Source: Phormidium sp. OSCR (GTDB lineage Bacteria; Cyanobacteriota; Cyanobacteriia; Cyanobacteriales; Geitlerinemataceae). From it: 34,998 bases of DNA. Where the stretch lies: NCBI GenBank assembly GCA_001314905.1, contig LJZT01000043.1, forward strand, positions 1 to 34,998. The letters are read 5' to 3'. Below the pieces are notes generated by a model. The model worked only from the letters and a program-made list of their open reading frames with translations, searched no databases and was not told the origin of the DNA. Below, piece by piece: positions 6,401 through 30,102 of this stretch (positions are counted from its first letter, which is position 1; each line of letters opens with the position of its first letter). Both the position numbers and the translations under genes were made by a program.

Positions 6401-6794
6401 AGACATTGACCATTTTAAACGGTTTAATGATACCTATGGTCATGATGCCGGAGATTTTGTGCTGCAACAGGTGGGGCAATTGCTGAGTCGTAGCGTTCGG
6501 GGTTCGGATATTGCCTGTCGCTATGGGGGCGAGGAAATGACCCTCTTATTACCCGAGTCATCCTTAGCCGCAACGGCTCGCCGAGCGGAGGAAGTCTGTC
6601 AGCGGATTCGGGAGCTGAAACTCAATTATAAGAGGGAAGTGTTGCCAAATGTTACCTTATCGTTGGGTGTGGCTTGTTTTCCCGAGCATGGTGTAACTCG
6701 GGCGAGTCTATTACGAGCCGCTGATGAGGCATTATACCGAGCGAAGAAGGGAGGACGAGATCAGGTTATTGTGAGTGAATCATGGGGAATTTAG
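3441..6794 (+). CDS. Multi-sensor diguanylate cyclase (GAF-PAS4-GAF-GGDEF)
   Basis: 1117 residues from a GTG. A GAF-like domain lies at about 55-200, a coiled coil at 234-262, four PAS domains at about 262-385, 395-512, 523-635 and 647-765 (the second and third end in the typical DITNLKETE/DMTQ-type linkers), a coiled coil at 765-800, a second GAF at 800-940 and a GGDEF domain at 948-1114. The active-site loop reads RYGGEEM, with the preceding DIDHFKRFNDTYGHDAGD metal-binding motif. RGSD, five residues before GGEEM, is the inhibitory I-site, so active c-di-GMP synthesis with product inhibition is expected. No membrane segment is seen, so it is probably cytosolic. The start is uncertain: TAAGGAGG directly abuts the GTG, and the first ATG is at 3462. 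Confidence 0.93.
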   Translation: MQSISANMNLSIPNHPSGQTQLPSLSFCGDSFDAQTLALWQRNLATSILTIRESLVLSELLQRAVDEVYALLHPDAVFVSRGDRPQSSQIIAEASASRQWLRLQRCLDTPTLDLDWSGRTSEPEVLLLNDYRTFNPPPCCLAPGNQIPKNLVVSLIVNQEFWGLLIVQHYASFRQWQFFEVEGLKLIGCHVSQGIQQALELEKYVDINNQKKSKTSDKQRLSHYQPSTEDRSESWERQQWRLEKAQRQQEKIQKTIEEQSAILRSFYNSCPLLMGVEELVDDDINMISYNHASLSVLFEEISPILGHSCQTGVADIRPSSEIFQLWLSRYRQAEAEQRPIQFEYQYQADDKTYWFLAIVSFLGLSPQQYPRFSYVVEDISDRKQYELELKQLKEQLELVIQAASEGFWEIDYRSNRFYYSPHWKEMLGYQDQELDNSENTWRGVIVPEELEEVSKLLEDYKTGKINEFIKTIRFIHKDGSIRYMYCRAIAVKESSGQVVRIVGSNLDITNLKETEIALKDSERNYRAIVENSEEGIWVVNHKGETTFVNPKLLEMLGYSEDEILHQSFLNFIDAENQEIAQERLQQLNQGRSEIHLSKFRRKDGSILWARVSATTHYNSAGHPCGSIGLLTDMTQMIEYQEALETSQMQLRGVLDSSLDGMMAFRSVRDEQGRIIDFEWLLSNQAACDMVQRSKEELIGRRLLVEMPGNRDEGLFDDYVQVVESGATLTRQFRYNHERMDHWFENIAVKLGDGFVVTFRDVTTAKTSEQQLQQLNRELEERLKDLERRNQEMKILNEVSDFLQACLTVEEACLAISSFVEPLFPNCSGAIFMANNSRNQVSRVAIWGRQLQSIDQFTPQDCWALRRGAVHHVDQSLQGLKCHHVYGNLQEFSTLCVPMIAQGETLGLLYLNSNNKAEISLIEQQLARTVAEQVSMAIANLQLRETLQQQSIRDPLTGLFNRRYLDEFFDQEIQRASRNDHGIGVIMLDIDHFKRFNDTYGHDAGDFVLQQVGQLLSRSVRGSDIACRYGGEEMTLLLPESSLAATARRAEEVCQRIRELKLNYKREVLPNVTLSLGVACFPEHGVTRASLLRAADEALYRAKKGGRDQVIVSESWGI

Positions 6795-6808
6795 ATATAG
6801 TTAAAATG

Positions 6809-6854
6809 GGGATTAAGATAGGGATTAAGATAGGGATTAAGATAGGGATTAAGA
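6809..6854. repeat. 12-bp tandem repeat, 3.8 copies
   Basis: The unit GGGATTAAGATA starts at 6809, 6821 and 6833 without mismatch, followed by ten more bases of a fourth unit. It sits between the convergent ends of the diguanylate cyclase gene and dcd. Confidence 0.9.
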
Positions 6855-6895
6855 GTAGGCGAGGGCATCCAGACGAGGATACCCCCAGGGGAGAT

Positions 6896-26566: not shown

Positions 26567-27085
26567 TTAGAAGCCATCTAACGAGGCGCGACCTGTGGTT
26601 TTCATCCAGTTTTGCGCTTCGATGTAGTTATTGGGTGCCAAGCGAACCGCTTGTTTCCAATAGTCAGCCGCCTTATCAAAAAAGGCTTCAGAGGCATCGA
26701 AATCCCCTTCTTCCTTGGCCCGTTCTCCTCGATATTGATAAATCACGGCGATGTTATTAAAAGCTTGGGGCATCCGAGGATTTAACTCTAGGGCTTCATG
26801 ATATTTCTCTAGCCCTTTGTCATGTTCGCCATTGCTCGTATAAATCAGCCCCATGTTATAGAGAATATAACTGCGATCGTTGGGGTCATCTTCGAGTTTT
26901 AAGGCTTCTTTGTAGTTGTCCATGGCCTCGGCATATTCACCATCGGCTTGAGCGGACATCCCATCACGATAGTAGGCAAAGGCTTCTTTTGCTGATTGTT
27001 TGGCGGGCAGAATTTTGAGGATGATATCTGCCATCACCGTAAAGGATTTATCGATGAAATTGTCGTTGCGTTGTGTGCGTGGCAT
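26567..27085 (-). CDS. ycf3: Photosystem I assembly protein Ycf3
   Basis: 172 residues, the normal length. TPR protein of the thylakoid surface needed to assemble PsaA/PsaB. It starts [20 protein letters not shown], as in other cyanobacteria and plastids. Three TPRs follow at about 35-68 ([21 protein letters not shown]), 72-105 ([20 protein letters not shown]) and 118-153. An array of heptamer repeats begins 11 nt before the start codon, leaving only a short spacer (CTTAAAAAACC) without a normal ribosome site. Confidence 0.97.
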
Positions 27086-27095
27086 GGTTTTTTAA

Positions 27096-27172
27096 GGGAA
27101 CAGGGAACAGGGAATAGGGAACAGGGAACAGGGAACAGGGAACAGGGAACAGGGAACAGGGAACAGGGAACA
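27096..27172. repeat. Heptamer array (GGGAACA), 11 units
   Basis: Eleven consecutive units of GGGAACA with one variant (GGGAATA at 27110). It lies directly upstream of ycf3 and reads as CCCTGTT on the ycf3 coding strand. This is an STRR-type repeat of filamentous cyanobacteria. Confidence 0.97.
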
Positions 27173-27373
27173 GGGATAACCCACCCCTGGCCCCTCCCAG
27201 GAGGGGAAGAAAAGACGTAGGGGCGTACCCTTGTGGTCGCCCGAGGCAAGAGGCATAACCCACCCCGCCCTCCGGGCACCCCTCCCACCGAGGGGAAGGC
27301 AAGAGGGGATAACCTACCCCGCCCTTGGGGGAATCCGTTTTTTAGCTTAATCGATCCGTTGTTGTTTGTGGGG
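27173..27373. repeat. Cluster of dispersed GC-rich repeats between ispD and ycf3
   Basis: Three copies of the AACC(C/T)ACCCC...CCTCCC(A/C)...GAGGGG type repeat (about 27178, 27258 and 27310) surround one copy of the hairpin repeat also seen at 10163 (27220-27242). Reading frames here only translate the repeats. Confidence 0.7.
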
Positions 27374-28066
27374 TTAAGATTGGCGATCGCGGTGGTTGAG
27401 GACGAAGCTGGCGATGGTGAGGTCGATGGGGGTGGTGACTTTTAGGTTGGTGTCTTCGCCGGGGACGATGTGAACCTTAAGCTGGCATTTCTCAAATAAT
27501 GCCGCATCGTCGGTGACTTGCCAACCCTCTCGCCGGCCGCGATCGTGGCAGGCTTTCAGGGTAGCCACCTCGAAGCCTTGGGGGGTTTGGGCGGCCCAGA
27601 GACGACGGCGATCGGGGGTATCCTGGATTTCTAGGTCGTCGTTGACGACTTTGATGGTATCTTTGACCGGAATCGCGGCGATGAGTCCAGGACAGGTCTG
27701 AACCTCTTTGGCACAGCGGTTAAAGAGATCCGGCGTCGCCAAACACCTGGCCCCATCATGGATGAGAACATGGCGGGCATCGTTGGGAAGGGCCTGTAAG
27801 CCGTTATAGACGGACTCCTGGCGGGTGTCTCCTCCCTGGATGAAGTGAACCGGTGTCCGCAGGGCCAGTTGACTGAGAATGTCCTTAAACTCGTCGCGAT
27901 CGCCGGGTTGACAAATTAAGCCAATCCAGGTGATGGCTTCGGCGGCTTCGGCGGCTTTGAGGGTCCAGGCGAGAATCGACTCGTTGAGTAGGGGGAGTAA
28001 GAGTTTATTGCGATCGCTGCCCATACGGCGACCAACGCCCGCCGCAGGGATGAGTAGATGGGTCAT
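27374..28066 (-). CDS. ispD: 2-C-methyl-D-erythritol 4-phosphate cytidylyltransferase
   Basis: 230 residues. Joins CTP and MEP in the non-mevalonate pathway to isoprenoids, hence to carotenoids and the phytol of chlorophyll. HLLIPAAGVGRRMGSDRNKLLLPL is the nucleotide-binding start, VLIHDGARCLATPDL the central motif, IPVKDTIKVV and QTPQGFEV the substrate loop, and VTDDAALFEK and PGEDTNLKVTTPIDL the C-terminal motifs. The start at 28066 fits the family. The open frame upstream to 28195 is a translation of repeats. Heptamers begin five bases from the start, so no normal ribosome site remains. Confidence 0.96.
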   Translation of the reverse strand: MTHLLIPAAGVGRRMGSDRNKLLLPLLNESILAWTLKAAEAAEAITWIGLICQPGDRDEFKDILSQLALRTPVHFIQGGDTRQESVYNGLQALPNDARHVLIHDGARCLATPDLFNRCAKEVQTCPGLIAAIPVKDTIKVVNDDLEIQDTPDRRRLWAAQTPQGFEVATLKACHDRGRREGWQVTDDAALFEKCQLKVHIVPGEDTNLKVTTPIDLTIASFVLNHRDRQS

Positions 28067-28070
28067 AGGA

Positions 28071-28098
28071 GGGAACAGGGAACAGGGAACAGGGAACA
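28071..28098. repeat. Heptamer array (GGGAACA), 4 units
   Basis: Four exact units just upstream of the ispD start codon. Confidence 0.95.
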
Positions 28099-28103
28099 GG
28101 GGA

Positions 28104-28145
28104 GGCAAGAGGCAAGAGGCAAGAGGCAAGAGGCAAGGGACAAGA
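28104..28145. repeat. Second heptamer array (GGCAAGA), 6 units
   Basis: GGCAAGA four times exactly and two variant units, directly behind the GGGAACA array. A dispersed GC-rich repeat then fills the rest of the gap to the ygfZ stop codon. Confidence 0.9.
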
Positions 28146-28199
28146 GGCATAACCCACCCCGCCCTCCGGGCACCCCTCCCAAGAGGGGATGGCAAGAGG
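28146..28199. repeat. Dispersed GC-rich repeat next to the ygfZ stop
   Basis: It matches the element at 27249-27302 (CATAACCCACCCCGCCCTCC...GCACCCCTCCC), so the two copies are close to identical over about 45 bases. Confidence 0.8.
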
Positions 28200-29279
28200 C
28201 TATTTCTCGGCGGTGGTGAGGTAGCCTCGGGAGAGGAAGGGAACCTCGATAACTGTCGCGTTGCTGGACCCGACCTGAACCGATAAGCCTGGGCCTCCGG
28301 CTTTGGTGCGAATATAGCCTAAGCCGAGATAGCCGTCGTCTGTGGCGACGATGCTGGTGAGAGTCCCCACTTTAGTCTCGTCCACCTGAATCGGGGTTCC
28401 GGGGGCGACAAACTCACTGAGGCGGAGTCCCCAGAGTTGCTGTTTGACCCCTTGATAGGTGTTGAGACGGGCGATGGTTTCTTGTCCGATGTAACAGCCT
28501 TTGTCGAAGGAAATATAGTCCCAAAGTCCGGCTTCGAGGGGATTATAGTCTAGGGTGAGTTCGGCATCGGGGGCGGGTCGTCCCTGTTGAATGCGTAGTT
28601 GCTGCCAAACGGTTTCTCCGAGGGGGGTTGCCCCAGTCTCGTGCAAGGCGGTCCAGATGCTGGCGGCTTGGTCTGCGTCACACAGAAGAGTATAGCCAGG
28701 GAGGTTGAGACCATTCCCGGCCCCGAGACGAATTTGGGGGGAATTGGGGAGATGGTCGAGGCTGAGGAGGCGATGTTGTCCGGGGGGGATGTCTGGCGAG
28801 AGACCGAGTTGTTGCAGCAGTTGAGGGCTGCTGTCACCGATGAGGCTAAAACAGGCTGTTTCTGAAGTGCGATCGCGCAACTCGACGTCATCGGCCGGGA
28901 AGATATAGCGGTCTAGGAGTTGGAAGAGGGTGTCGCGGCGACTAGGGGAAACTAAGAGAATCACCGCTTCTTCGGTGATGTAGGCAGTGGCGAGATCCAG
29001 GGTACGGGCTGTGTTGTTGACAAACACCGTTTCACAGAGGTCTCCCGGCTGCCGTTGGTTAAAGGCATTGGTACTTTGATTATGGACAAAGCGAAGGCGA
29101 TCGCCCCCAGTGAGTTCTAAGCGTCCCCAGGGGGTGCGATCGTACAAGGCCACCCCAGATTGGGCCGCCTGGAGGGCCTGGCCGTCATTGTTAAAACTCA
29201 CAGCCGCCATAACTCCTGGGGCAATGTCCTCGGCGATCGCCCCGGCGGCCCGTTGTATCTCCTGTAACTCCTGATTCAT
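28200..29279 (-). CDS. ygfZ: Folate-binding YgfZ/GcvT-related protein
   Basis: 359 residues. The family helps make or repair iron-sulfur proteins with a folate cofactor. The diagnostic motif KGCYIGQETIARL is present (about residue 260), with its conserved cysteine. The GcvT-like fold is also seen in LYDRTPWGRLELTGGDRLRFVHNQSTN near residues 45-72. Length is close to the family norm. The start ATG at 29279 leads into MNQELQEIQRAAGA. The following gene on this strand is ispD, separated only by repeats. Confidence 0.9.
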   Translation of the reverse strand: MNQELQEIQRAAGAIAEDIAPGVMAAVSFNNDGQALQAAQSGVALYDRTPWGRLELTGGDRLRFVHNQSTNAFNQRQPGDLCETVFVNNTARTLDLATAYITEEAVILLVSPSRRDTLFQLLDRYIFPADDVELRDRTSETACFSLIGDSSPQLLQQLGLSPDIPPGQHRLLSLDHLPNSPQIRLGAGNGLNLPGYTLLCDADQAASIWTALHETGATPLGETVWQQLRIQQGRPAPDAELTLDYNPLEAGLWDYISFDKGCYIGQETIARLNTYQGVKQQLWGLRLSEFVAPGTPIQVDETKVGTLTSIVATDDGYLGLGYIRTKAGGPGLSVQVGSSNATVIEVPFLSRGYLTTAEK

Positions 29280-29370
29280 AGTCGAGAGGATATGATGATG
29301 CAGATTGCTCTTTTCCCCAGGATACAGGGAAGCCAGGGACAGTTCCTAGCCTCTTGCCCCCTATTCACTA

Positions 29371-29496
29371 TTCCCTATTCCCTATTCCCTGTTCCCTGTT
29401 CCCTATTCCCTATTCCCTGTTCCCTGTTCCCTGTTCCCTGTTCCCTGTTCCCTGTTCCCTGTTCCCTGTTCCCTGTTCCCTGTTCCCTGTTCCCTA
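29371..29496. repeat. Heptamer array (TTCCCTG/TTCCCTA), 18 units
   Basis: Eighteen consecutive units, mostly TTCCCTG with several TTCCCTA, ending three bases before the stop codon of the GerMN-like gene. On the minus strand it reads as GGGAACA, so relative to the genes it is in the opposite orientation to the arrays at ycf3 and ispD. Confidence 0.97.
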
Positions 29497-29499
29497 TTT

Positions 29500-30102
29500 T
29501 CAAAACCGCAACGGTTGTCCCTGACTGGTGAACTCAACCCTGGCAATATCGAGTTCGGGGTTTTCTAGGAGTGTGCTGCGTAAACTCCCCAGGAGAGAGA
29601 ATTGTTCACACGTCGACAGAGAAGACCAACGGCGGGGTGCGTCGGGGGCGATGCGTAAATCCACATTCACAACCCCAGTCATATCGTCTCGTTGGACACG
29701 ATAGCCCGCTAGACGAAACTCCCCCTGAGCCCAATCTTTGAGAACATGACCGATCGCCCCTTCGGTGGGTTGTTCTCGCGAGACTTGTTCGGTTCGGGGG
29801 ATGAGGTTCTCGCAAAAGAGATCAGGACGATAGACGGTGACGGTGAGGCTTGGCTGATCGAGACTTGGGTCTTGGGGATTGGGATTGTCGGGTGTTAACT
29901 CCACGTCGTTAGAATTTACGTCGGCTTCTGATGTCGTCGCGGGCGGTTCGGGGGAACTCGGTTCTGTATCTGTAATTAGGGGTTGGCGACTGCGGGGGGA
30001 ACCAAACCGTCGTTGGGCTAGGGCCGAATCGGCCATGGCCAGGCTGGCGATCGCCCCGGTGAGGAACAACAGCAGATATGATTTGATACTGTTACTGCGC
30101 AT
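29500..30102 (-). CDS. Secreted GerMN-like protein
   Basis: 200 residues from the ATG at 30102. Residues 1-30 ([24 protein letters not shown]) are a clear Sec signal peptide with an Ala-x-Ala cut. A disordered acidic, Pro/Ser-rich linker follows to about residue 82. From [20 protein letters not shown] to the end the pattern fits a GerMN-type domain ([61 protein letters not shown]), a domain of spore and envelope proteins that also occurs in cyanobacteria. The product is probably periplasmic. The open frame upstream of the chosen start overlaps pyrB antisense and is rejected. Confidence 0.75.

Follow-up and report, generated by a model that had tools for sequence, protein, structure and literature searches.

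Three tandem arrays of GGGAACA-type heptamers are located between the genes ycf3, ispD, ygfZ and a GerMN-like gene in a 34,998-nt stretch of the genome of Phormidium sp. OSCR (assembly GCA_001314905.1, contig LJZT01000043.1, positions 1 to 34,998), the whole of which is called the window in this work. The analysis carried out has indicated that these arrays are probably three copies of a dispersed, directional family of intergenic heptamer repeats. On this reading most of them are spacers of a neutral or selfish kind, and none is dedicated to controlling ycf3, ispD or ygfZ. In this family the purine-rich and G-rich strand, read 5' to 3', leads away from whichever gene end is nearer, start or stop, and the array-bearing spacers change much faster between relatives than the array-free ones, apparently by gain or loss of units and by replacement of one heptamer by another with the polarity kept. 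A locus-specific account of photosynthesis control is in this way replaced by a genome-wide account of a repeat. The former had been proposed in a first-pass annotation, in which slippage in the arrays would vary the expression of a photosystem I assembly factor and of isoprenoid synthesis. From that annotation, the non-random placement of the arrays and their different lengths in different species have been retained; the specificity for these loci, the loss of ribosome sites and the conserved control have been abandoned, and slippage control of photosystem I or isoprenoid synthesis is unsupported.

Dispersal of the arrays in the genome

The arrays of the window contain 11, 4 and 18 uninterrupted GGGAACA/GGGAATA units by exact count, as described in the first-pass annotation. 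The reading given there for the coding strand was also right (CCCTGTT in the first and second arrays, GGGAACA in the third, with the four genes on the minus strand), and the distances to the flanking codons were correct to within a few bases (89 nt for the ygfZ gap, given as 92, and 5 nt for the GerMN-like stop, given as 3). The calls of Tandem Repeats Finder were 27095-27176 (11.7 units), 28070-28101 (4.6 units) and 29359-29495 (19.6 units). The window arrays are beyond chance, with five exact period-7 runs of at least 21 nt in the window and none in 200 first-order Markov resamples of it.

A search for three consecutive GGGAACA units in the own genome (G000, 4.69 Mb in 187 contigs, window included) has revealed 496 matches (237 + 259) and none for the reversed control. 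The same tract was present in 20 of the 59 genomes searched, own genome counted, and each of six same-genus relatives contained between 33 and 533 matches, the highest number corresponding to G005, in which the reversed control gave 7. G001, G002, G003 and G006 are also same-genus relatives.

The arrays of the own genome were located in a non-random sample of 674,998 bp that corresponds to 14% of the genome and includes the window, with the contigs C1 (5.6 kb) and C40 (2.5 kb) outside it. Genes were called with a purpose-made caller (549 genes, 85% coding in the sample), whose starts were benchmarked on the window only. Two array thresholds were used, a stricter one that yielded 63 period-7 arrays in this sample and a looser one that yielded 76. 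At the stricter threshold there were also 1 array of period 6, none of period 8, 3 of period 9, 13 of period 12 and 23 of period 14, the last number being expected because 14 is a multiple of 7. At the looser threshold, 71 of the 76 period-7 arrays were intergenic. Samples of G005 and G001 contained 61 and 13 arrays, and the commonest array length was four units in each of the three samples, narrowly so in the own genome, where 16 arrays have four units and 15 have three. On the G-rich strand, most units were variants of one theme, including GGGAACA, GGGAATA, GGCAAGA, GGCAAAA, GGCAGTA and others. The view that arrays are special to ycf3, ispD and ygfZ does not fit this distribution, in which the window supplies 4 of the 76 arrays of the sample and others precede genes of many kinds.

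Heptamer arrays were found within about 40 nt of the ends of contigs C2, C6, C16, C18 and C28 of the own genome, and of several contigs of G006. Several contigs have an array at or close to one of their ends, and for this reason the copy numbers of the longest arrays are uncertain in draft assemblies. Short-read assemblies appear to break at these arrays, the longest of which may be under-represented. From a practical point of view, these tracts may serve as strain markers, and they are bad places to trust short-read assemblies.

Polarity of the arrays at gene ends

Polarity was scored after setting aside the arrays inside called genes (5 in G000, 2 in G005 and 1 in G001) and dropping 2, 1 and 0 further arrays, respectively, that had no gene on both sides or no richer strand. 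The gene end located 5' of the array on the G-rich strand was the nearer one in 56 of the 69 usable arrays of the own genome (p = 1.7e-7), in 52 of 65 when the window was left out, and in 37 spacers against 6, with 3 ties, when counted by spacer. The same polarity was found in G005 (42 of 58, p = 0.0009) and G001 (11 of 12, p = 0.006), and the three window arrays conform to it. For G000, G005 and G001, respectively, it was observed in 16 of 18, 8 of 8 and 3 of 4 arrays between divergent genes and in 26 of 32, 19 of 32 and 8 of 8 arrays between codirectional genes; between convergent genes the numbers were 14 of 19 in G000 and 15 of 18 in G005, with no such cases in G001. Mapped relative to genes, the arrays are far from randomly placed and lie at gene ends, in line with the first-pass annotation.

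When the three genomes were pooled, 45 of 84 arrays in C-rich sense and 1 of 48 in G-rich sense were located within 50 nt before a start codon (Fisher, 1.5e-10), and 30 of 55 arrays in G-rich sense and 9 of 91 in C-rich sense within 20 nt after a stop codon (Fisher, 5.8e-9), values that are too optimistic because arrays sharing one spacer are not independent. Selection against purine-rich leaders is the simplest reading of the near-lack of G-sense arrays just before starts.

The crowding of C-sense arrays in the last 50 nt before starts would also be expected of a translational leader element, with pyrimidine-rich heptamers kept because they hold open the starts without a Shine-Dalgarno (SD) core, for example for ribosomal protein S1. 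Defined as GGAG, GAGG or AGGA in the interval -18 to -4, an SD core was present in 83 of the 340 array-free leaders of the own sample, compared with 34 for a control interval placed farther upstream; of the 42 leaders belonging to array-bearing spacers, 8 had one. The 257 array-free leaders that lack it speak in favor of such an element. It is nevertheless unlikely to account for the arrays, because the same geometry was found between convergent genes, where no leader exists (29 of 37 arrays in G000 and G005), and the pyrimidine bias of array-free leaders is slight (C+T 0.51 in G000).

The statement that the ycf3 and ispD leaders have no usual ribosome site left was not sustained. The leaders of both genes in the relatives compared have pyrimidine-rich ends without an SD core, with a long array or a short one, and consequently the arrays did not remove the ribosome site; this cause of SD loss was ruled out. 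Missing ribosome sites are common in this genus and are not an effect of the arrays.

The fact that one geometric rule applies to both gene ends, stops and convergent pairs included, suggests that direction is built into the repeat module. A more elaborate proposal is that the arrays are the arms of a directional mobile or templated module, consisting of a border GGGGAAGA, the heptamer array and a TAACCCACC-type element, which would be laid inward from gene ends by a dedicated copying process able to swap the heptamer while keeping site and polarity. The motif AGAAGG was found in the 5' flank of 17 of 70 arrays in G000, 31 of 59 in G005 and 6 of 12 in G001 (8, 11 and 5 in the 3' flank), a shared border that is suggestive only, because neighbouring arrays supply part of the signal. 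A TAACCCACC-type element was present within 40 nt of the array, on the 3' and 5' side of the G-rich strand respectively, in 18 and 9 of the 76 arrays of G000 and in 11 and 1 of the 61 arrays of G005, and in none of the 13 arrays of G001. A module with its own copying process is considered quite unlikely.

Turnover of the arrays and neighbouring genes

The gene order of the window is kept in four same-genus relatives. In a fifth, G006, it can be followed as far as the ispD start, at which the contig breaks off. In the 15 kb examined of G008, which belongs to another genus, ygfZ was the only one of these genes detected, and no close ygfZ match was found in G004. The spacer between the GerMN-like gene and ygfZ carries 18 GGGAACA/GGGAATA units in the own genome, 4 GGGAACA units in G006 and, in G001 and G005, units of GGCAGTA type past the stop. 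In the ygfZ-ispD spacer, GCCTCTT is followed by CCCTGTT in the own genome and the order is reversed in G006, while G003 and G005 are exactly one CCCTGTT unit and two substitutions apart (189 against 196 nt), a clean one-unit change of the kind that slippage would leave. The ispD-ycf3 spacer contains 11 CCCTGTT/CCCTATT units in the own genome and GCCTACT in G001; G003 and G005 have about four units of mixed type there, and G002 has almost none. Array length is not fixed between species, in agreement with the copy-number variation envisaged in the first-pass annotation. A conserved control by the arrays does not agree with relatives that have another heptamer or, as in the ycf3 leader of G002, almost none, with Ycf3 still 96.5% identical. 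As a separate observation, identity is 95.4% in the ygfZ-ispD stretch of G003 and G005 (L073 6828-8264 and L074 10405-11850), compared with 88.6-90.1% in the rest of the long alignments of this region, a contrast suggestive of local recombination.

A syntenic block of G005 and G001, whose long alignments cover 125 kb at 92.6% identity, was compared for spacers of 60-900 nt. No usable G001 anchor was available for 3 of the 15 array spacers and 27 of the 81 array-free spacers of G005, and in the reverse comparison 4 of the 11 array spacers of G001 lacked one. Differences of at least 7 nt were seen in all 12 anchored array-bearing spacers, compared with 18 of the 54 array-free spacers (Fisher, 1.8e-5) and 15 of the 41 array-free spacers with at least 120 nt, and the median column identity was 0.57 in array-bearing and 0.88 in array-free spacers. 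According to the alignments, read by eye, 6 of the 12 array spacers of G005 had wholly or partly another heptamer in G001, 2 had the same heptamer in another copy number and 4 were array-free in G001. Both genomes carried an array in 8 of the 12 spacers (7 of 12 at a stricter cut), and the polarity agreed in all 8, one of which has an extra opposite array in G005 without counterpart. In one spacer the heptamer differs to within a few bases of the start codon, and the first codons are identical.

For a family of mostly neutral or selfish spacers, replication slippage would lengthen and shorten the arrays, and the heptamer could be swapped through template switching or gene conversion among the dispersed copies, a process that is proposed because slippage explains gain and loss of units but not the replacement of one heptamer by another. 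The arrays would persist in spacers on which there is probably little constraint until a few bases before the start codon, and purine-rich sense tracts just before start codons would be eliminated.

Several points weigh against this reading. Gene conversion between copies has been deduced rather than directly observed. In G005 the polarity between codirectional genes is weak (the 19 of 32 mentioned above), just 14 of 21 arrays conformed (p = 0.19) in a first, smaller sample scored at the stricter threshold, and significance arose with the looser threshold and more sequence; to this is added the optimism of the pooled Fisher values. The site is not always kept, because the array between the GerMN-like gene and ygfZ is at the opposite end in G003, before ygfZ (a few CCCTGTT/CCCTATT units). 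Changes of at least 7 nt are also seen in one third of the array-free spacers, and the near-lack of G-sense tracts before starts shows that the arrays are not wholly free of effect.

In the own sample, a C-sense array precedes the start of 18 genes by no more than 50 nt, and 17 of these genes were scanned (ycf3, ispD and 15 others, two of the latter without their last part), the remaining one being cut by the end of a sampled piece of sequence. Pfam families were found in 14 of the 15 further genes: ribosomal L15, amino acid kinase, NAD synthase, cytidylyltransferase-like, AAA_33, SMC, phosphoribosyl-ATP pyrophosphohydrolase, Mpo1-like, HIT, FAD oxidoreductase, Mur ligase, AstE/AspA, DXP reductoisomerase and protein kinase. 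The neighbours of the arrays do not look like a surface or contingency set.

This diversity of neighbours, together with heptamers that differ or are absent in relatives, makes it very unlikely that slippage in leader arrays alters transcription or translation of ycf3, ispD and ygfZ and creates differences from cell to cell. The arrays are placed 10 and 4 nt before two of the start codons, and both the lengths that vary between species and the one-unit difference of G003 and G005 would suit such variation. The system taken as its model is the hmw1A array of Haemophilus influenzae (PMC8262952), also a heptamer array in a promoter or leader region, whose number of heptamers alters expression according to the available part of the report, so that an effect of this type is possible in principle; that array, however, is present at the two adhesin loci, where its effect on expression has been demonstrated, whereas many sites of all kinds are involved here. 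For their own heptamer repeats, Rehm et al. deemed phase variation unlikely, many neighbours being general metabolism genes (PMC4692102, in the text at hand).

Known heptamer repeats and other features of the window

In the open-access literature searched, no listed paper has GGGAACA arrays of cyanobacteria as its subject by title or start of abstract, and an open-access search for GGGAACAGGG in cyanobacteria gave nothing relevant (one match, on broiler chickens). Judged by sequence and placement, the window arrays are of the same kind as the G-rich heptamer repeats of Rehm et al. (2015), but a different repeat. The accessible portion of that paper describes GGGAATC repeats from Xanthomonas and GGGGA(C/T)T repeats from Nostoc PCC 7120, located on the antisense strand when 0-50 nt upstream of a start and on the sense strand when past a stop, next to genes of all classes, with length and sequence varying between two Xanthomonas species and with a link to quadruplex formation (PMC4692102). 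As far as that portion goes, both groups of repeats have period 7, a G-rich strand, dispersed and mostly intergenic copies on both strands, the same start and stop placement, four units as the commonest length, positions mostly shared between relatives with length and sequence varying, and no bias of gene class. The shared defining traits found here are dispersed G-rich tandem heptamers, intergenic placement at starts and stops, and shared sites with variable length. The units, in contrast, are GGGAACA, GGCAAGA and GGCAGTA instead of GGGAATC or GGGGA(C/T)T, and most arrays are not capable of forming quadruplexes. Here one gene end can carry different heptamers in two relatives with the polarity kept, a case for which the accessible portion of Rehm et al. 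contains no description.

It is highly improbable that the arrays act as G-quadruplex elements, with folding of the G-rich strand or RNA affecting transcription or translation and placement reflecting this folding: arrays without four GGG tracts, which are 102 of the 139 usable ones, obey the same polarity as the capable ones (80 of 102 against 29 of 37), so quadruplex capacity does not set the placement and was ruled out as its common cause, and GGGAACA-type and GGCAAGA-type arrays replace each other at orthologous sites, with GGCAAGA not predicted to form quadruplexes. Favorable to such an element are the quadruplexes predicted for GGGAACA and GGGAATA units (four GGGAACA units as RNA, -8.4 kcal/mol), the preference for four units, narrow in the own genome, and the evidence of quadruplexes reported for similar heptamers in the portion of Rehm et al. 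at hand (PMC4692102). For a repeat class whose origin is unexplained, the present data add that the strand rule holds without quadruplex capacity and that two genomes about 7% apart can have different heptamers, in the same polarity, at one and the same gene end. Models of the origin of cyanobacterial heptamer repeats must account for both the quadruplex-free strand rule and the replacement of the heptamer.

The heptanucleotide repeats called STRRs were reportedly described in filamentous cyanobacteria by Mazel et al. in 1990. Phormidium and its Geitlerinema relatives are filamentous cyanobacteria too, and the arrays resemble STRRs in being multi-copy tandem heptanucleotides of a cyanobacterium. 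In the parts of the literature at hand, three tandem heptanucleotides of Calothrix PCC 7601 are mentioned by Rehm et al. (PMC4692102), STRRs have been used for strain fingerprinting (PMC5088731), and one STRR precedes hoxW of Nostoc (PMC2670836). The TAACTGA repeats (MacGregor 2015, PMC4679880), according to the available text, were described in one Beggiatoaceae genome as intergenic and mostly just before start codons, differ between Cyanothece PCC 8801 and 8802 mostly by indels in 7-nt steps, and were proposed as binding sites of a post-transcriptional regulator, ribosomal protein S1 being among the candidates. They are also intergenic heptamer arrays, but with a G-poor heptamer and an orientation that, in that text, varies between species, and TAACTGA is not among the array units listed for the genome samples.

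Features of the window around the heptamer arrays (positions of the window; sequences of units as on the coding strand)
Feature	Position	Strand	Description
ycf3	26567..27085	-	Start 27085; TPR families in Pfam; gene name from the first-pass annotation
Array 1	27096..27172	-	11 units, CCCTGTT/CCCTATT, 10 nt upstream of ycf3
Dispersed repeats, ispD-ycf3 spacer	27174..27336	.	TAACCCACCCC-type elements and one GTAGGGGCG...GGTCGCCC element
ispD	27374..28066	-	Start 28066; Pfam IspD, 5e-81
Array 2	28071..28098	-	4 units, CCCTGTT, 4 nt upstream of ispD
Second heptamer array, abutting array 2	28102..28149	-	About 7 units, GCCTCTT (= GAGGCAA)
ygfZ-like folate-binding protein	28200..29279	-	Start 29279; Pfam GCV_T, 9.7e-27; ygfZ name from the first-pass annotation
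Array 3	29369..29494	-	18 units, GGGAACA/GGGAATA, 5 nt past the GerMN-like stop, 89 nt before ygfZ
GerMN-like gene	29500..30102	-	Stop codon 29500-29502; name from the first-pass annotation

A Pfam scan of the GerMN-like frame gave no match. The GAGGCAA array next to array 2 was absent from the first-pass annotation. The ispD frame is open upstream across array 2 (28067-28195) to a TTG at 28195, and automatic annotation may therefore set the ispD start too early. No Rfam match at gathering scores was obtained anywhere in the window, which rules out a known Rfam RNA in the spacers.

Palindrome-like and other dispersed repeats are also present in the spacers of the window. The REP-like element GTAGGGGCG...GGTCGCCC, located at 27217-27242, has 23 exact matches in the genome, in which 5 matches to Y1_Tnp transposases were found, and REP-like elements mobilised by Y1 transposases were considered as a candidate. 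A 12-nt array, TTAAGATAGGGA, with about 4.8 copies, is located at 6801-6859, just past the stop of a frame ending at 6794, and 6 of the 13 period-12 arrays of the own sample were intergenic.

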